Source of the DNA: Candidatus Bathyarchaeota archaeon
Lineage (GTDB): Archaea > Thermoproteota > Bathyarchaeia > 40CM-2-53-6 > RBG-13-38-9
Direction: 5' to 3'
Length of the DNA stretch: 41,160 bases
Assembly: GCA_018396915.1 (NCBI GenBank)
Contig: JAGTRD010000010.1
Location: 1 to 41,160 of the forward strand
Shown: positions 2,772 to 25,473 of the stretch, in pieces
How the letters are laid out: each line of letters starts with the position of its first letter
Position numbering within the stretch: position 1 is the first letter of the stretch
Notes under the pieces: model-generated
Told to the model about the DNA's origin: nothing
The model's database searches: none
What the model saw: the letters and a program-made list of their open reading frames with translations, nothing else
Made by a program: the position numbers and the translations under genes

Positions 2772-4463
2772 TTGAGGCAGCCGGCTATAATCCTTACGCT
2801 CCTCATCATTTTCACAGTCTCATCTCTTATTCCACCGGCCAACTCTGTGGCATACGGTTACGTCTCAGGAGTGGAGAGAAAGGTTGTTATAAGCAAATAT
2901 GGCTTAGCAACATTCACAGATGTTCTGTCGATCTTCAATAATGGAACTTCACCGATGAATACTCTGGAATTTATTTATCCTAAAGGTTACTCTTCAATGC
3001 TTGATTCAATCGATGCTAGGGATGCGGATGGAAAGACTCTGAAGGTTGAGAGGGTCATCGACCAGTCCTCTATGATCTTAAGGATAAACCTAGAAACGCC
3101 TATCCAGCATGGATCAACATTCAAGATCAATATGAAAATGGTTTTCTCAGGTCTCATAACCTTCGACGGGATTGATTATAAGTTATCTCTACAGCCATAT
3201 CCGAATATTCCCTTGAGCATCGAATCATGCAACATCACAGTAATATTTCCAAAGGACACTACTCTGAAAAGTTGGCCGAACCAAACGTTTACCCGAAGGA
3301 CGGTCGATGAGAAGCCGGCCTTGATTGGAAGGGCCAAGTCCACGCAACCACTGTCAAGCGGGGAGGTTTACATCAAGTTTGGAAGTGAAGGTTATGAGCT
3401 CCTGTCCTTTGAGTCTATTAGGAGGGAGGTTGTGATGGACCCGCTGGGCCGACTGATCTCCAAAGACACATATAAGATATTGAACTTGGGTAAAGAACTC
3501 AACTATGTAACTATACCGTTACTTGAAGGCGTGAGCGAAGTGAAAGCTTATGATGCTACAGGTCCGATATCCGACAGGACCAAGTTTAAGGATGATTCAA
3601 TCCAGGTCACACCTAGATTTGGAAAACTCAAGACGAACACCTCATTCTCATTCACCTTAGAATATGATTTGCTAACCAACGGATCGATTAGGAGGACCAG
3701 TTGGGATGGAGACTGTAGGTTGACGTTGATGCTTGCTTCGCCTAGCGATTATGTTGCTAAGAATTATAGGGTTCAGGTCGACCTACCCAAAGGAGTTGTC
3801 ATCAACCGTACGTCAGTGGAGTCCAATTCAACCTCGGTCCTTCCTGACGGTAGCTATGTTCTAACCTATGAGTATTCTAAGGTCATACCTGACAAAGAAT
3901 ACATTCTGACTATCGACTACAAATATAAGCCATTCATGTATGCGATATATCCTGTCGAGTGGATTCTAGCATTAGAGGTCATAATCGGCGCTTTGGCTTC
4001 AGCAATAATTCTTAGAAAGCCACCAAGGATCATACCTTCAATATCTGTAGGGAAGATCAGAAGGTACATTGAACTTCAAGATGATAAGAGGGCCTTGAGG
4101 CTTGAGATTGAGAGGAGAAGTGAAGAGTTGAGTAGAGGGGCTATTACCAAACATGACTATCGAAGAATGAGGAAGTCGCTGGATTCGAGGTTGAGCGAGA
4201 TAAACAGGTCCCTTGCAACATTGAAGAATGAGTTAAAGAGTATCGATCCGAGATATTTGGAGATGGCGAATAGGCTCGAGAGGGCGGAGAGTGAGGTTGA
4301 AGCATTGAAGGCGAGTGAGAACCAGCTTACAAGCAGATATAGGAGTGGCCAATTGAGCAGGGAGGTATACGAGTCGATGCTCAGCGACTTGAGGAAGAAG
4401 ATTGGAAAGGCTGAAGAGACTATTGAGAGCATAATTGTGATGCTGCGGGAGGAGGCTAGGTGA
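2772..4463 (+). CDS. Unrecognised membrane-anchored surface protein with cytoplasmic coiled coil
   Basis: Domains in order: an N-terminal hydrophobic signal segment (about residues 1-26); a large extracytoplasmic beta-rich region (about 27-390) with several Asn-x-Ser/Thr sites; one transmembrane helix (about 396-416); then a basic stretch and a long charged coiled coil (about 430-563) facing the cytoplasm. The arrangement suggests a surface sensor or anchor rather than an enzyme. The start is a TTG at 2772 about 20 nt after the TATA-like TATAAATAT (2749-2757), consistent with a leaderless mRNA; no other start keeps the signal segment intact. I do not recognise the family, though the outer region is reminiscent of other archaeal predicted membrane proteins of unknown function. 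Confidence 0.75.
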   Translation: MRQPAIILTLLIIFTVSSLIPPANSVAYGYVSGVERKVVISKYGLATFTDVLSIFNNGTSPMNTLEFIYPKGYSSMLDSIDARDADGKTLKVERVIDQSSMILRINLETPIQHGSTFKINMKMVFSGLITFDGIDYKLSLQPYPNIPLSIESCNITVIFPKDTTLKSWPNQTFTRRTVDEKPALIGRAKSTQPLSSGEVYIKFGSEGYELLSFESIRREVVMDPLGRLISKDTYKILNLGKELNYVTIPLLEGVSEVKAYDATGPISDRTKFKDDSIQVTPRFGKLKTNTSFSFTLEYDLLTNGSIRRTSWDGDCRLTLMLASPSDYVAKNYRVQVDLPKGVVINRTSVESNSTSVLPDGSYVLTYEYSKVIPDKEYILTIDYKYKPFMYAIYPVEWILALEVIIGALASAIILRKPPRIIPSISVGKIRRYIELQDDKRALRLEIERRSEELSRGAITKHDYRRMRKSLDSRLSEINRSLATLKNELKSIDPRYLEMANRLERAESEVEALKASENQLTSRYRSGQLSREVYESMLSDLRKKIGKAEETIESIIVMLREEAR

Positions 4464-4666: not shown

Positions 4667-6136
4667 TCATGGTGAGTATTTGAATGGGTGCTTTGCCCTC
4701 TCCTTATTCTCTAACAATTCGTCTATTGTTGGTCTACCTTCGAGGGCCCTCCTGATGGCGTGTCTCACAGCTTTATAATTGTTTATGTAGACCCTCCTCC
4801 TATCGACGGCTGAAGGATGGGTGAACACGTTAACCATAATAACTAGGCTCTCGACAGACCTTTCAGGGATCAGACCTTCAGCTACGCTGTCAACCACAGC
4901 CTTGGCGACAGCTGCTTGGGCTGGACCGTAGACCATGCTTGCCTGCCTCATGCTCTTTATGGTCACTGTAGGTATTATCAGTGTCGTCGGCTTCACCGCT
5001 AAGTTCGGTTCAAGAATCGCTATTAGAGGTTCATGGCCGGCTGATGGTGTCGCCTTGGCTTTGACGAAGGCCTCTCCAACAGGGCCGTCTTTGAGTCCAA
5101 TGATTACCTCAACATGAGCGACCTCAGGACCTTCTCCAGCGAGGCCCTCCCCAACCCTTATCTCAGGACCCTCCACCGGCACCATATGTTTGACAGCGAA
5201 TTCGTAGGCGCCGTCTCGTACAGCTATCTCGGGGGCGAGAGCTTTACGCTCAATCTTCTCAATTCTCTCCAACTCTATTCTCAACTCCTCTAAGTCTTCG
5301 TATGAGAGTTCGCCTCCCACCGATAGTGGGAGCCTGACAGGGCCTACTTTGATATTCATCATGTTTAGGGCTGCCTTGGCTCCGACAGGCCCACTCTTAA
5401 CGATTATCCTACATATCTTCTGGATACTTGTCTGAATCTTTTTGGCCTCAGCCATATTCTCCCTGAATGCACGGTATAGTCTGAGCCAAATGTCCGGTAT
5501 GAAGTTTGCACTGGCAAGAATCATTCCTGATGCACCTGCGGCTAGGGCTGGGAGAACGACTTCATCATGGCCGCAGAGAATCGAGAGTCTCGAACCAGTC
5601 TTCTCTATGACTGTTAGTATATACTTTATCTCGCCGCTACTGTCTTTTAAGCCTACTATGTTCGGTATCTCAACGAGGTCTTCGACCATCTGCCAACTCA
5701 AGTTAACACCGGTGGCTTGTGGAATATTGTATAGGACTATTGGTAGATCAACCTTCTCTGCCAGGACCCTGTAATGTTCATATATCCCCCTATCTGCAGG
5801 TTTATGGTAGTAGGGTGTGACAACCAAGGCGGCGTCTGCGCCTACATCCTTGGCGTGGCGTGTGAGTTCAACAGCTACATTTGTGCTACTATGGCCTGTT
5901 CCCGCGATTACAGGAACCTTACCGTTTGCTTGGTCGACAACATATTCTACAACTCTCTTACGCTCCTCAAGAGTGAGGTTCTGGCACTCCCCAGTCGTTC
6001 CACATGGAACTAGGCCGTTTACTCCACTCTCAACGGAGTAGTCTACAAGCCTCCTCAATCTGCCCTCATCAATTTCCTCTCCTGAATCTGTGAAGGGTGT
6101 GACGAGGGCGGGGAAGACTCCCTCCAGCCTCAACAT
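4667..6136 (-). CDS. Fusion of a DapA/NAL-family aldolase with formaldehyde-activating enzyme (Fae)
   Basis: One uninterrupted 489-residue reading frame with two enzyme halves. Residues 1-~295 are a TIM-barrel class I aldolase of the DHDPS/N-acetylneuraminate-lyase family: GTTGE at 46-50, Tyr136 in YNIP, Schiff-base Lys164 in GLKDSSGE. The segment after YNIP reads QATG, so the Arg that binds aspartate semialdehyde in true DapA is missing; the pattern resembles 2-keto-3-deoxygluconate aldolases. Residues ~325-489 are Fae, with EVAHVEVIIG (catalytic His341), DGPVGEAF, TPSAGH, YGPAQAAVAKAV and the ending KHPF. Fae condenses formaldehyde with tetrahydromethanopterin to methylene-H4MPT in the cytoplasm. 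I infer an aldolase that releases or uses formaldehyde (for example 4-hydroxy-2-oxobutanoate to pyruvate plus formaldehyde) coupled to Fae. The ribosome site GGAGATC precedes the ATG. It lies downstream of alba. Annotation as plain dapA would probably be wrong. Confidence 0.9.
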   Translation of the reverse strand: MLRLEGVFPALVTPFTDSGEEIDEGRLRRLVDYSVESGVNGLVPCGTTGECQNLTLEERKRVVEYVVDQANGKVPVIAGTGHSSTNVAVELTRHAKDVGADAALVVTPYYHKPADRGIYEHYRVLAEKVDLPIVLYNIPQATGVNLSWQMVEDLVEIPNIVGLKDSSGEIKYILTVIEKTGSRLSILCGHDEVVLPALAAGASGMILASANFIPDIWLRLYRAFRENMAEAKKIQTSIQKICRIIVKSGPVGAKAALNMMNIKVGPVRLPLSVGGELSYEDLEELRIELERIEKIERKALAPEIAVRDGAYEFAVKHMVPVEGPEIRVGEGLAGEGPEVAHVEVIIGLKDGPVGEAFVKAKATPSAGHEPLIAILEPNLAVKPTTLIIPTVTIKSMRQASMVYGPAQAAVAKAVVDSVAEGLIPERSVESLVIMVNVFTHPSAVDRRRVYINNYKAVRHAIRRALEGRPTIDELLENKERAKHPFKYSP

Positions 6137-14998: not shown

Positions 14999-15105
14999 TC
15001 ATTATATTTGAACTATAATTGAGTAGGTAACTATATAGGTCTATATATTTTGTATCCAATTAATATATATACCGCTGAAATTATCTTCATGACAAGGTGA
15101 TTATA
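14999..15105. promoter_or_regulatory. Divergent phosphate-control promoter region
   Basis: A very A/T-rich gap between the AbrB-PhoU regulator and pstS. TAATATATATAC at about 15061-15071 fits as the pstS TATA box, with GGTGAT (15096-15101) as its ribosome site. AATATAAT-like sequence on the other strand near 15001-15008 fits the regulator. A small palindrome CTATATAG near 15031-15038 lies between and is a candidate operator. Confidence 0.55.
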
Positions 15106-16023
15106 ATGAAAAGGTCGTTTGTAACGTGGATAGCTGTAATAGCAATCATAATTATCGTTGGAATCTCAGTATATTGGAGCATTCCTAAAATATCAGAGCA
15201 GACTAAGACTGAAAAACAATTAGTGAACCAGAAAGGCTCCGATACCCTTCTCGTCCTTGCCCAGATATGGGCGGAAGTATACATGGCCAAGAATCCTAAT
15301 GTGCAGATCACAGTCAGCGGAGGAGGATCAGGAACAGGCATAGCGGCCCTTATAAATAAGCAGATAGATATGGCAGACGCCTCCAGAGAGATAAAAGATA
15401 AAGAGATTAAAGATGCAAAAGCTAGGGGCGTCGAACCTGTAGAGTGGAAGGTTGCTATAGACGGAATCTCGGTGATAGTCCATCCCAGCAACCCCCTAGA
15501 CAAAATCACGTTAGACCAGCTTAAAGCCATATACAACGGAAGCTATACTAACTGGAGACAGCTTGGGGGTCCAGACAAGCCGATAAACACTTACGGCAGA
15601 CAATCTAACTCTGGAACATATGTGTATTGGCAAGAGCATATCCTCCAAAACCAGAATTACAGGACAGATATGCAATCTTTGAATGGGAACGCCGATATAG
15701 TTGAGGCGGTATCTAAAGATCCTGCGTCCATAGGATATGTTGGGGTAGCCTATGCAGCTGCAAGGCCAAAAGACGTTAAGACCCTCAGCGTTCAGGAGAA
15801 AGCAGAAAGCCCAGCATACCCACCAACACCTGAAAACATAGTCAACAAAAAATATCCCATATCCAGATACATGTACATCTACACAGATGGTATCCCAAAA
15901 GGAGCTGTCAGGGAATATCTGAAGTTCATAATAAGTGATGAGGGTCAGAGGATCGTTGAGCAGGTGGAATATATACCATTACCTGAGCAGATCAGAAAAG
16001 AGCAGCTTGAAAAGTTGAGGTAG
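15106..16023 (+). CDS. pstS: Phosphate ABC transporter substrate-binding protein PstS
   Basis: An N-terminal hydrophobic segment (about residues 5-24) exports or anchors the protein. The mature part has the PstS ligand-site pattern GSDTLLVLAQ, VSGGGSGTGIAAL, MADASREI and GRQSNSGTYVYW. It captures phosphate outside the cell and hands it to PstCA. No lipobox Cys is seen, so anchoring by the uncleaved helix is likely. I use the ATG at 15106, 4 nt behind GGTGAT; the in-frame GTG at 15097 overlaps that site. It is first in pstSCAB-phoU, with a 66-nt gap before pstC that contains a T-rich stretch (about 16044-16053) which could attenuate downstream genes. Confidence 0.95.
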   Translation: MKRSFVTWIAVIAIIIIVGISVYWSIPKISEQTKTEKQLVNQKGSDTLLVLAQIWAEVYMAKNPNVQITVSGGGSGTGIAALINKQIDMADASREIKDKEIKDAKARGVEPVEWKVAIDGISVIVHPSNPLDKITLDQLKAIYNGSYTNWRQLGGPDKPINTYGRQSNSGTYVYWQEHILQNQNYRTDMQSLNGNADIVEAVSKDPASIGYVGVAYAAARPKDVKTLSVQEKAESPAYPPTPENIVNKKYPISRYMYIYTDGIPKGAVREYLKFIISDEGQRIVEQVEYIPLPEQIRKEQLEKLR

Positions 16024-16089
16024 CTCAGCTACCCAATATTCACTTATTTTTATATTCGATCTTGATACAACTATCATGGTACGCTTGGT

Positions 16090-16986
16090 ATGAGAGCGAT
16101 TAGGAGAAGATCAAGCAGAACTGTCGAGAGTGTGATAGAATACCTCATCCTAGGGTGTGCTTGCATATCGATCATGATACTGTTACTTATATTCATATTT
16201 CTTTTTAAAGAGGGTCTTCCAGCATTTGCTCACATACCGTTGTCAGAATTTATTTTTGGTACTGTTTGGCAGGTTCAGGCTGTTGAGCCTCGTTACGGGA
16301 TCTTACCACTGCTCTGCGGCAGCATCCTCGTCACCGGCGGAGCCATAACAGTATCCGTCCCCCTAAGTCTTATGTGTGCGTTATATATTTCCGAGGTTGC
16401 CCACCCTCTTGTAAGGGAGGTCATCAAACCTCTCATAGAATTGCTTGCAGGAATACCGTCAGTCGTTTACGGATTTTTGGCTTTGACAGTACTGGCTGAT
16501 TTAACCCAGCGATTCACTGGTTCAATTCATAGACTCAATGCATTGAACGGTGCTTTGATTCTTGCTGTGATGATAGCCCCAACAGTCATCAGCATATCAG
16601 AAGACGCCATAAAATCCGTTCCTAAGGAATATCGCGAAGCAGCCTATGCCATAGGTGCTGATAAATGGGAGACTATGAGCAAGATAGTCTTTCCGGCCGC
16701 ATTGCCTGGGGTCCTGGTAGCAGTGATGCTCGGCATAAGCCGGGCTATAGGGGAGACGATGGCTGTTCTGATGGCAACTGGCAATGCGCCGCTTTTCACG
16801 TTTGACATACTTAGCTCAGTCCAGACGATGACGGCTGTCATAGCCATTGAGATGGGTGAGGTTACCTTCGGCTCTATACACTACCACGCCCTATTTGCGG
16901 TAGGCTTGGTTCTCCTGGGAATAACTTTCATAATAAATTTTCTAGCTGAGGTGCTGCTTAGAAGATTTAGGAGTGTAAGGTTTTGA
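16090..16986 (+). CDS. pstC: Phosphate ABC transporter permease PstC
   Basis: A polytopic inner-membrane protein of 298 residues with about six transmembrane helices. The permease EAA-type loop KEYREAAYAIGADKWETMSKIVFPAALPG contacts the ATPase PstB. The GIPSVVYGFLAL segment in the third helix region is typical of PstC/PstA. It forms the channel with PstA. The TTGA overlap with pstA (4 nt) shows translational coupling. Confidence 0.95.
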   Translation: MRAIRRRSSRTVESVIEYLILGCACISIMILLLIFIFLFKEGLPAFAHIPLSEFIFGTVWQVQAVEPRYGILPLLCGSILVTGGAITVSVPLSLMCALYISEVAHPLVREVIKPLIELLAGIPSVVYGFLALTVLADLTQRFTGSIHRLNALNGALILAVMIAPTVISISEDAIKSVPKEYREAAYAIGADKWETMSKIVFPAALPGVLVAVMLGISRAIGETMAVLMATGNAPLFTFDILSSVQTMTAVIAIEMGEVTFGSIHYHALFAVGLVLLGITFIINFLAEVLLRRFRSVRF

Positions 16987-17843
16987 GGTTCAGAAGAGTC
17001 AAATCTCTGATTGCCTTAGCATTAATCCGGTCATCGGCTCTGATAATGGTTGGCGCCGGGGTTCTGATCTTCATCTACCTTATCGTCAAAGGCTCGGTGG
17101 TTATCAATTGGACATTCCTCACTGATCCTCCGAGGCAAGGTATGACCAGCGGAGGAATATTTCCAGCAATATTTGGAACGTTATGCCTTATGCTCCTAAC
17201 CCTGACCTTTGCACTACCAGTCGGAGTGGCATCAGCAATATATTTTGCAGAGTACGCTGGAAGGGGCAGCTCGCATCTGAATATTCTGATGAGGTTAGCA
17301 ACCAGTATTTTGGCAGGTGTCCCATCAATAGTTTACGGTCTTCTAGGACTCAGCCTCTTCGTACTCTACATGAGATTCGGCTTCAGCCTACTCTCAGCAT
17401 CCCTCACCCTGAGCATCCTTTCGCTGCCAGTGATAATAGCTGCCTCTGAGGAATCCCTGCGCAGTGTGCCGGACTCTTATAGAGAGGCCGCCGTTGCCTT
17501 GGGCGCCACGAAATGGCAAGTGGTTAGGCATGCTGTCCTACCATATGCTGTGCCTGGGATCATTACCTCCTGCATACTTGCCTTAAGTAGGGCTGCCGGG
17601 GAGACTGCGCCCATACTCTTGACAGGTGCGGCATATTACCATCCTAGACTCCCAACGTCGATATTAGACCAGTTCATGGCCTTACCCTTTCACATATTTG
17701 CCTTGGCAACCCAGTCTGTTGATCCGGTTAAGACGAGGCCCATACAGTTTGGAGCAGTTCTCATCCTCATCATGCTCGTTCTTGGAATGAATATGGCTGC
17801 TATCCTGATCAGGATCAGGCAGAGGAGGATGGCTCAAGCATGA
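16983..17843 (+). CDS. pstA: Phosphate ABC transporter permease PstA
   Basis: The 286-residue partner of PstC, with about six transmembrane helices, [17 protein letters not shown] and the EAA-loop [29 protein letters not shown]. It starts with a TTG that overlaps the pstC stop (TTGA) and ends overlapping the pstB start (ATGA), so the three proteins are made in a coupled fashion. A run of Arg near the C-terminus marks the cytoplasmic end. Confidence 0.95.
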
Positions 17844-18601
17844 ATGGTGAATGCAAGATTGAGATTCGCAACCTTCAAGTCGGATTCGGCAAACTCATGG
17901 TTATTAATAATCTGAATATGAACATCAGATCAAACTGTGTAACCGCGGTGATGGGTCCCTCAGGATGTGGAAAATCAACTTTGATAAGGACGATAAACAG
18001 GTTGAATGATCTTGTTCCAGAATGTCATGTCAAGGGTCAGGTATTACTCGACGGCAGAGACATCTATGAACCTTCGATGGATGTTGTAGAGTTACGCAGA
18101 AGGGTTGGTATGGTCTTCCAGAAGCCCAACCCATTCCCAAAATCTGTTTATGAGAATGTTGCCTTCGGACCTAGAATCCACGGGATGGCTATGGGTGATA
18201 GTCTGGATGAGATTGTTGAGAGGAGCCTCAAAGCCGCAGCCCTCTGGGATGAGGTTAAGGATAGGCTCGACGAACCCGCTCTCAGCCTCTCAGGTGGCCA
18301 GCAACAACGTCTATGCATAGCAAGGGCGCTGGCTGTCCAACCTGAGGTTATCCTTCTAGATGAGCCTTGCTCAGCACTTGACCCTGCGGCAACTTCCAAG
18401 ATAGAGTCGTTGATGGTTTCATTGAAGAAGGATTACACAGTGATCGTTGTCACCCATAATATGCAGCAGGCAGCCAGGGTCTCGGACTACACTGCATTTC
18501 TTTATTTAGGGGAGCTTGTTGAATATGGGGAGACTAGGAGGGTCTTCGAGAATCCGAGCAGTAAGCTTACTGAAGACTTCATAACAGGCAGATTCGGCTG
18601 A
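17840..18601 (+). CDS. pstB: Phosphate ABC transporter ATP-binding protein PstB
   Basis: A 253-residue ABC ATPase with Walker [11 protein letters not shown]-loop [19 protein letters not shown] (the Asn-Pro-Phe pattern is PstB-specific), signature [15 protein letters not shown], Walker B VILLDEP and switch His in [14 protein letters not shown]. It powers phosphate import through PstCA. It is coupled to pstA by ATGA and is followed 11 nt later by phoU. Confidence 0.96.
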
Positions 18602-18612
18602 AGTGGTATGGT

Positions 18613-19257
18613 ATGGAGAAGGCTAGACTACTCGACAAGGGTTTAAATGAGCTCTCAGACTTGTTGGATGAGATGGCTAAGATCGCTGAGAAGACAGTCT
18701 CAGCCTCAATCCAAGCATATCTTGAAGGCGGAGATATTGACTTACAGGTTAGACAATGGTCCGATACACTCATTAACTATAACAATCAGGTTGGAGAGAA
18801 GGCTATAGAGTTGATAGCCAGATATCAGCCCGTTGCAAACGACCTCAGAACAATCAGGGCATGCATAGAGATCTCGTACAACCTATCAAGGTTTGGCAGA
18901 TACGCATATGACATATCGACGATCCATAAGACCATAGGGGGTCGTGGAGAGTATGGGAGGGAAGTTGTTTCAGAGATGGGTGAGAGAACCATGAAGATGA
19001 TAAAGGCAAGCATAAAGGCTTACAGGACGAAAGACGCGAGACTCGCCGAAGAAGTGAGTGAGGAAGATAGAATTATCGATCAACTCTACTTCAAACATTT
19101 GAGGGATTGTGTTAAGAATCCTCCGAGAGATGTTGAGCAGCTGATCACAGATATTCTAACTGTTCGCCATCTTGAAAGGATCGCGGACCATGCAGTTGAC
19201 CTTGCGAGTTCAACCCTATATATGATCAAAGGACAAAAGATAAGCAAATGGAGATAG
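18613..19257 (+). CDS. phoU: PhoU phosphate-uptake regulator
   Basis: A helical protein of 214 residues with two PhoU repeats; metal-binding-like charged clusters occur in AIELIARYQPVANDLRTIRA and in VRHLERIADHAVDLA near the end. PhoU binds the Pst transporter and restrains uptake and signalling when phosphate is ample. It is the last gene of the pst operon. Unlike the divergent regulator it has no DNA-binding domain, so the two PhoU proteins probably have separate tasks. Confidence 0.93.
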   Translation: MEKARLLDKGLNELSDLLDEMAKIAEKTVSASIQAYLEGGDIDLQVRQWSDTLINYNNQVGEKAIELIARYQPVANDLRTIRACIEISYNLSRFGRYAYDISTIHKTIGGRGEYGREVVSEMGERTMKMIKASIKAYRTKDARLAEEVSEEDRIIDQLYFKHLRDCVKNPPRDVEQLITDILTVRHLERIADHAVDLASSTLYMIKGQKISKWR

Positions 19258-23226: not shown

Positions 23227-23257
23227 CTTTATACATGGGATTATTTTTAGTGGAGAT

Positions 23258-23321
23258 AAGGCGATGAAGCTCGCCTTTAAGCGCCTCTGCCTCAGAAATT
23301 GCGGGGGCTGATAGCTTCTAC
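23258..23321 (+). ncRNA. Fluoride riboswitch (crcB motif)
   Basis: Stem P1 AAGGCG (23258-23263) pairs with CGCCTT (23272-23277). The loop GAAGCT (23266-23271) can form the pseudoknot with AGCTTC (23313-23318). Stem P3 GCCTCTGC (23283-23290) pairs with GCGGGGGC (23301-23308), using two G-U pairs. GGCGATGA at the start and CTGAT before the pseudoknot plus CTAC after it match the conserved positions of the crcB motif; compared with the Thermotoga aptamer the pseudoknot bases differ but co-vary. TTTATA at 23228-23233 places the transcription start at about 23256, exactly the 5' end of P1. The start codon of the next gene is 22 nt downstream, so control is probably translational or by early termination. 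This is a strong match from memory of the consensus. Confidence 0.9.
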
Positions 23322-23342
23322 CAACCCATTAGAATATGAGAC

Positions 23343-24254
23343 GTGGCTAGGTTGGTCAAAGCTTGGCACGCGGGTCTGAGAACCATATTTGAACGTTTGA
23401 AAGGGAGAGATGCACAGCCAGTATGGAGTGAGACTGTTTCAGAGAGGAAGGTCCCACACGAAGTTGATATCCTATCTTTACCGCTTGAGGATGCTTTAAA
23501 GAGGGGTTCAGAGTGTCCACTCTGTTGGCTCCTGGAGAGGGAGGAGAACCGTTTTCTGGAATCATTCTATTCAGGATGGATAATGGACCCATGGTGCAGG
23601 GAGGATATTATCAGGTCCCACGGATTCTGCAATTACCACTCTCACAGATTGCTTTGGTTTGCGGAGGTCAATTTGGAGAGGCTCGGTCTAGCACTGGTTC
23701 TTGAAAGTCTGGTGATAAGTGAGAAGGCAACATTCGAAGGGTTGGGTGAAGGTATCCTCCAAGAAGTGGCCGCCCCCAGTAAATCCGCCTCTAAGCACAC
23801 TGATTCTATAAGCCCATTCCTGAGAAGCCTATACGAGAATATGTGCAAATCTTACTCAGAGTGTCCAGCATGCAAATCCTTGGATGAGTCTGACATAGCT
23901 CATATTGATACTTTCATCCAGATGATGCTGGAGAGTCCAGACTTTAGGAAGAGGTTTGAAGAATCTCATGGCCTATGCACCCCCCACTTCAGCAAGACTG
24001 TACAGATTGCATCTGAAAGATTGAGACAGCAAGACTTGAAGAAACTTATCCTCTTCCTCTGGAAAATCCAAATCAGGAACCTGAAAAGGTTAGAGTCTGA
24101 GTTGTCTAAGTTCATAAGAAAATATGATTACCGCTTCTCAGAGGAGCCCTTCGGATCAGAGATCGATATAGTCGAGAGAACGATTCGAAAACTTAGCGGT
24201 GTATCAGCCTACAACCCGATAGCATTGAAGAGGGTGAGCATGCTCTATGGATGA
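23343..24254 (+). CDS. Cys/His-rich DUF6062-like protein under the fluoride riboswitch
   Basis: A 303-residue soluble, helical protein with an internal duplication. Each half has a CPxC pair followed about 35 residues later by HG(F/L)CxxH: C58-C61 with H93, C96, H99, and C174-C177 with H209, C212, H215. Each set could hold a metal ion. This resembles the DUF6062 family, whose function I do not know. It has no fluoride-channel or antiporter features. The start is a GTG at 23343, 22 nt after the riboswitch; a TTG at 23352 is also possible. The next gene overlaps it by 8 nt. Its control by a fluoride aptamer suggests a role in fluoride stress, which would be new. Confidence 0.8.
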   Translation: MARLVKAWHAGLRTIFERLKGRDAQPVWSETVSERKVPHEVDILSLPLEDALKRGSECPLCWLLEREENRFLESFYSGWIMDPWCREDIIRSHGFCNYHSHRLLWFAEVNLERLGLALVLESLVISEKATFEGLGEGILQEVAAPSKSASKHTDSISPFLRSLYENMCKSYSECPACKSLDESDIAHIDTFIQMMLESPDFRKRFEESHGLCTPHFSKTVQIASERLRQQDLKKLILFLWKIQIRNLKRLESELSKFIRKYDYRFSEEPFGSEIDIVERTIRKLSGVSAYNPIALKRVSMLYG

Positions 24255-24666
24255 GAATCATAGAAGAGCCCTAAACACAAGCCTGAGGATCATTGAGAGA
24301 TACTTAAACATGATAAATGGAGAATTAGCCTATGAAAACGCAACTCGAAACCTCATCCTAACCTCAACCATTAACGACATCGACCATGAAACAAGAACAA
24401 GAATCTTAGAGGTTACAGCATCTATGTTAGATGGTATCAAGAAGATGAAGGAAGAATACAAATTAGAAAAGGATGAGATGCCACTGAAGAGACTTTTATG
24501 CAGCCTACTTGCCGAGATCAAAGTTATACTTGAAGAACTCAAACCGGAGAAGATGGAGAAGGCATATGGCCAAATATCTGAGGCGGATAGAAAACTGCTT
24601 AAACCACACATTCTAAATCTACTGGAACTTTGGGAGGAAGCATACCAAACTTTGGTCAGCCCATAG
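24247..24666 (+). CDS. Small helical protein, second gene of the fluoride-riboswitch operon
   Basis: A protein of 139 residues, almost entirely amphipathic helix, rich in Leu, Glu and Lys, with no signal peptide or membrane segment and a single Cys. The ATG overlaps the upstream gene by 8 nt, so the two are translated together and the products may interact. I do not recognise a family. It ends in TAG and is followed by a long gene-poor stretch. Confidence 0.7.
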   Translation: MDENHRRALNTSLRIIERYLNMINGELAYENATRNLILTSTINDIDHETRTRILEVTASMLDGIKKMKEEYKLEKDEMPLKRLLCSLLAEIKVILEELKPEKMEKAYGQISEADRKLLKPHILNLLELWEEAYQTLVSP

Positions 24667-25359: not shown

Positions 25360-25473
25360 TGGGCCCGCCCGGATTTGAACCGGGGACCTCCACCGTTCCC
25401 AAATGCTATTTTATTATTTTTGTCTTTTTAGTTGTTTGTGAGGGTGGCGTCCTAACCGCTAGACTACGGGCCC
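25360..25473 (-). tRNA. tRNA-Val(CAC) with a 41-nt intron
   Basis: Acceptor stem GGGCCCG pairs with CGGGCCC, discriminator A at 25360, no encoded CCA. The D arm GTC...GAC, anticodon stem CCACC/GGTGG and T arm CCCGG-TTCAAAT-CCGGG all pair. The anticodon loop begins CTCACA, giving CAC (valine, GUG codons). An A/T-rich insert of about 41 nt (25396-25436) follows base 37, the canonical archaeal intron position, leaving a 73-nt mature tRNA. The intron would be removed by the archaeal splicing endonuclease at a bulge-helix-bulge. Confidence 0.95.

Follow-up and report, generated by a model that had tools for sequence, protein, structure and literature searches.

A fluoride riboswitch ahead of a DUF6062 gene in a Bathyarchaeota genome and its relation to a recurrent, probably non-export gene unit

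The riboswitch and two overlapping genes

The window, the whole 41,160-nucleotide stretch of a Candidatus Bathyarchaeota contig analysed here, carries a fluoride riboswitch aptamer followed by two genes on the same strand. The features of the locus are the following:

23228..23233, + strand: TATA-box-like TTTATA (from the sequence), some 25-30 nt 5' of the aptamer
23251..23327, + strand: fluoride riboswitch aptamer (RF01734), found by cmscan
23266..23271, + strand: pseudoknot 5' strand GAAGCU, 6/6 pairs with 23313-23318
23281, + strand: G replacing the nearly invariant C in AACCG (cmscan alignment)
23313..23318, + strand: pseudoknot 3' strand AGCUUC, partner of 23266-23271
23343..24254, + strand: P0001, DUF6062 protein of 303 aa with a GTG start (Pfam PF19538)
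24247..24666, + strand: P0002, small helical-type protein of 139 aa with relatives in 5 other genomes of the class

The aptamer matches the full RF01734 model (positions 1-64) with 43.5 bits (E 6e-9; gathering score 34 bits) and is the only copy in the genome (1.63 Mb, 96% complete). This covariance search bears out the first-pass annotation, which had read the leader as a fluoride riboswitch whose pseudoknot still pairs. P1 is formed by GGCG and CGCC (23260-23263 and 23272-23275). In the class to which the genome belongs, the pseudoknot is fully paired (6/6) in 65 of 70 aptamers and its strands covary, with GGCATT/AATGCC, GAAGCT/AGCTTC and GGGGCC/GGCTCC as types. The mean number of pairs in these 70 class aptamers was 5.86 versus 4.58 when the 3' strands were shuffled (maximum 5.11 in 2000 shuffles). 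Conserved flanks had been claimed as well; P1 and the pseudoknot stand, but a deviation in the flank had been missed. The consensus AACCGCC reads AAGCGCC in the window, with a G at 23281, a form seen in none of the other class aptamers (70 compared). It is the only highly conserved position at which the window aptamer departs from the model, and as a single position is not defining by itself, we kept the RF01734 assignment because of its score. The likeness to the family lies in P1, P3, the pseudoknot, the conserved flanks and a score above the gathering threshold, whereas G23281, the expression platform and the targets set the window apart.

The TTTATA element agrees in position with the putative transcription start proposed in the first pass. 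TATA-like AT-rich matches lie within 40 nt upstream of 60 of the 70 class aptamers, a weak signal that was counted with no background control. Behind the window aptamer, neither a terminator nor a Shine-Dalgarno (SD) platform is recognisable. A candidate platform, in which AGCUUC-UACCAACC (23313-23326) pairs with GGUUGGU...AAGCU located 3' of the GTG, appears in the minimum-energy fold. In a duplex test using the strand minus its last three bases, this hairpin was no better than dinucleotide shuffles (p 0.41), and it was dropped since shuffled sequence is equally good. The same test gave p <= 0.05 for 21% of the class aptamers.

P0001 starts 15 nt after the aptamer and matches DUF6062 over nearly the full profile (positions 4-239 of 243; E 2.9e-45, 155 bits against a cut-off of 27). 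It contains two C-x2-C-x32-GxC-x2-H units, residues 58-99 and 174-215, with 32 residues between the two halves in both, which gives precise form to the two CPxC...HGxCxxH-like units described before. The full-length match and the two CxxC...GxCxxH units are what P0001 shares with this Pfam domain of unknown function; P0001 differs in being linked to a riboswitch, which most members in the phylum are not. All named relatives of P0001 come from Candidatus Bathyarchaeota metagenome-assembled genomes, and the window was assigned to Bathyarchaeia on this ground. The predicted structure is weak overall (pLDDT 66) with a good second unit, and the pairs of putative metal ligands sit at helix starts, a modelled placement that we would expect for structural metal sites. 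A comparison of the model with PDB folds returned nothing at E <= 0.001, the model being too weak to read. PADLOC models of anti-phage defence gave no match either, and a reading as a defence gene was therefore rejected.

The ATG of P0002 at 24247 lies within the 3' end of P0001, as the first pass had noted for a small second gene translated in overlap. No Pfam family scored above the cut-off for P0002. Its relatives share 33-36% identity with it, which marks P0002 as a real gene.

Gene order behind the riboswitch across the class

We surveyed 257 genomes of the class, 58 of which contain the riboswitch and 14 a homologue of P0001. Every one of the latter 14 is also among the riboswitch genomes (Fisher 2.3e-10, uncorrected for relatedness), and in 13 of them the homologue follows the riboswitch on the same strand at a distance of no more than about 2 kb. 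The exception (G197) has the two on different contigs. In 12 of these 13 genomes a further gene, here termed TOR, is placed between riboswitch and DUF6062, so that the common gene order in the class is riboswitch - TOR - DUF6062.

TOR is a protein of about 290 aa that matches the Pfam family Prenyltrans (PF00432; E 7e-24 and 2e-32) and is confidently modelled (pLDDT 87) as an alpha/alpha toroid. A weak match of TOR proteins to Ribophorin II was also seen. The gene occurs in 28 class genomes and, in 25 of them, is the one that directly follows the riboswitch. The three exceptions are a contig that starts inside TOR (G121), a broken TOR whose adjacent aptamer has decayed to 19.7 bits (G118) and a TOR gene without aptamer (G217). 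In six genomes TOR is followed by a different family, X, and not by DUF6062. Family X (about 220 aa) has no match in Pfam or NCBIfam and occupies the DUF6062 position at L048, L049, L053, L054, L056 and L065.

A search with a TOR profile found no TOR in the window genome. Its PF00432 matches, just two, are large proteins of extracellular type encoded on contig C19 and were rejected as TOR. In the tree, P0001 and the riboswitch-linked DUF6062 of G036 form one group (support 97/94); G036 has the full riboswitch - TOR - DUF6062 order, and this grouping makes a loss of TOR in the window lineage the simplest account. The comparison shows the window operon as a variant of the riboswitch - TOR - DUF6062 unit with its first gene missing. 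We also considered whether the 40-residue N-terminal extension of P0001 is a remnant of TOR and rejected this, as about 20% of shuffles align as well.

The P0002 family is found in six class genomes, the window genome and five others. Three distant genomes (G072, G096 and G098) carry a member in their fluoride-gene clusters, on the same strand and downstream of TOR or TOR-DUF6062 genes; in G098 only a TOR fragment lies ahead of it. These members have MFS, NUDIX, pyrophosphatase, antiporter or P-type ATPase genes in their vicinity. Two genomes of the same order (G030 and G031) also carry a relative of P0002, which there stands alone with no riboswitch detected nearby.

Genes known from the classical fluoride response, namely those for pyrophosphatase, enolase and a Na+/H+-type antiporter, are present in neighbouring riboswitch clusters. 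At L079 (G096), several fluoride-riboswitch matches are scattered around TOR, DUF6062, MFS, pyrophosphatase, enolase-like and P-type ATPase genes. Another locus (L069:4911-5306) encodes, after a full-length copy, a half-length DUF6062 of 132 aa with a single C-x2-C...GxC-x2-H unit, as if it were a free module.

Known targets and exporters

Genes described behind this riboswitch encode exporters, Na+/H+ antiporters, pyrophosphatase, haloacid-dehalogenase-fold enzymes, enolase, formate hydrogen lyase and chorismate mutase (PMC11139923), to which the original motif paper adds mutS and K+/Cl- transport (PMC2864571). None of TOR, DUF6062, X and P0002 is among the targets named in these two papers, in line with the earlier statement that the two window genes are not known targets. 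Our search of the open-licence literature for DUF6062, or for a fluoride riboswitch together with a prenyltransferase or Bathyarchaeota, returned no paper, a result that does not prove priority.

Neither CrcB (PF02537) nor CLC (PF00654) was found in the 96% complete window genome, and the same searches gave matches in most control genomes. The remark that the operon stands in place of a known exporter thus holds genome-wide. Of the 257 class genomes, 45 have CrcB and 49 have CLC. Both exporters are missing from 18 of the 28 TOR genomes and from the window genome, which makes 19 genomes with TOR or a riboswitch-linked DUF6062. Conversely, 22 riboswitch genomes lack both exporters, and 17 of these, window genome included, have TOR or a riboswitch-linked DUF6062. 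Among the riboswitch genomes, 7 have both TOR and CrcB, 18 TOR only, 25 CrcB only and 8 neither, a negative association with p 5e-4 (uncorrected for relatedness). The exporters CrcB/Fluc-DUF190 and CLC-F share the riboswitch class and the archaeal class with the TOR unit, and CrcB-DUF190 stands behind many of 69 surveyed aptamers. They differ from the unit in that TOR, X and DUF6062 have no membrane-like segments: peak hydropathy of the P0001, P0002, TOR and X proteins is 0.6-1.6 versus 2.3 in a CrcB control. For the window genes, the top 19-residue values are 1.25 (P0001) and 1.08 (P0002) versus 2.31. As no protein of the unit is predicted to span the membrane, the unit is not an exporter.

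The survey thereby confirms that DUF6062-like genes recur behind the motif, in 13 class genomes and in one genome of another class (G421), and the proposal of non-exporter fluoride targets made in the first pass is supported and broadened by this recurrence of TOR and DUF6062.

Proposed function and alternatives

In the fluoride riboswitch class, binding of fluoride switches genes on, and a known ligand reveals the function of the target genes. By analogy with this class, fluoride together with Mg2+ would stabilise the aptamer pseudoknot and turn on expression of the window operon, at the level of either transcription or translation. DUF6062 may then bind a metal, most likely zinc, through its two Cys3His sites and, partnered by TOR or P0002, could shield or restore a fluoride-sensitive metal-dependent enzyme, which is our best guess. 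Taken as a whole, a two-gene fluoride-switched operon in which DUF6062 acts with TOR or P0002 in non-export protection of metal or enzymes is the reading that we favour with moderate confidence. A fluoride-induced stress module working by other means than export is its likely part; enzyme or metal protection as the mechanism is a rather doubtful one. That archaea of the class and some relatives have in the combination of riboswitch, TOR and DUF6062 (or X, or P0002) an exporter-independent resistance system, and that it forms the main fluoride defence of the genomes without a known exporter, is conceivable and is put forward tentatively. The ligand ties DUF6062, P0002, the degenerate prenyltransferase-fold TOR and the unnamed family X to fluoride; many of the archaea concerned lack every known exporter. 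If true, a soluble branch would be added to fluoride defence and DUF6062 would gain a first testable function.

DUF6062 could instead have a general role in metal homeostasis or regulation and have been borrowed by several stress regulons, with an indirect link to fluoride. In a phylum-wide sample of 398 genomes, 28 carry the family. The riboswitch - TOR - DUF6062 order of G421 is the sole such region among those checked outside the class. In another lineage, three genomes (G376, G416 and G435; loci L152, L154 and L158) carry TOR-DUF6062 pairs without a detectable riboswitch, and therefore the pair exists independently of the switch. The remaining DUF6062 genes checked outside the class are standalone and have no riboswitch. 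Together, the pairs and the standalone genes indicate that the family is not fluoride-specific, and with so many standalone copies in the phylum its basic role need not concern fluoride. A bacterial DUF6062 gene (Monoglobus, L209:2894-4226) even lies directly behind the gene for the manganese efflux pump MntP. Within the class, however, the riboswitch accompanies all 14 P0001 homologues, 13 of them in cis, and we consider a merely indirect link unlikely.

The main rival to enzyme protection is a change of the membrane through TOR: its substrate would be isoprenoid lipids or a prenyl donor and DUF6062 its helical partner, so that less HF enters the cell. HF does enter by membrane permeation (PMC11139923). 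The nearest solved structures to TOR, a PF00432 protein, are Rab geranylgeranyltransferase (RabGGTase) beta subunits and squalene-hopene cyclases, which share its toroid fold. The zinc ligands of RabGGTase beta are Asp, Cys and His. The Asp and Cys positions fall on Asn and Asn in TOR, and in the TOR family two of the three ligands are replaced (D to N, R or S; C to N or A), the His being kept in part of the family. TOR is also set apart from RabGGTase by its partner, DUF6062 in place of a prenyltransferase alpha subunit, and from squalene-hopene cyclases by the DxDD motif of class II terpene cyclases, which was found in none of 26 TORs. With the zinc ligands replaced and DxDD absent, TOR was filed neither as a prenyltransferase nor as a class II cyclase. 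Moreover, TOR is missing from the window genome, where DUF6062 is present, and altogether we regard membrane remodelling as improbable.

For the window itself, the leader might be a relic: with TOR lost, a mutated aptamer would no longer sense fluoride and the operon would simply be expressed. The G at 23281, the missing TOR and the absence of a recognisable platform fit such a relic, as does the decayed aptamer beside a broken TOR in the relative G118. Against a relic speak the good fit of the rest of the aptamer to the model (43.5 bits), its unbroken pseudoknot and the two genes, whose reading frames are intact and whose metal ligands are conserved; we consider a relic about as improbable as membrane remodelling. 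Finally, that P0001 or P0002 is a new type of fluoride exporter was rejected as extremely improbable, since neither protein has a transmembrane-like segment, even though the window genome lacks a known exporter.

The window contains several further features of note. Genes of a phosphate-type ABC transporter together with PhoU (15097-19257, + strand) lie a few kb from the fluoride operon. Rfam detects a tRNA gene at 25360-25473 (- strand) whose anticodon arm contains some 43 bases left unaligned, a probable intron; ARAGORN reports none there. In an open reading frame of 489 aa (4667-6136, - strand), a dihydrodipicolinate-synthase-family domain (4-273) is followed by a formaldehyde-activating enzyme domain (328-485), a fusion that looks unusual. 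Another of 563 aa (2772-4463, + strand) matches Ribophorin I with 42 bits, the cut-off being 25, here in an archaeon.
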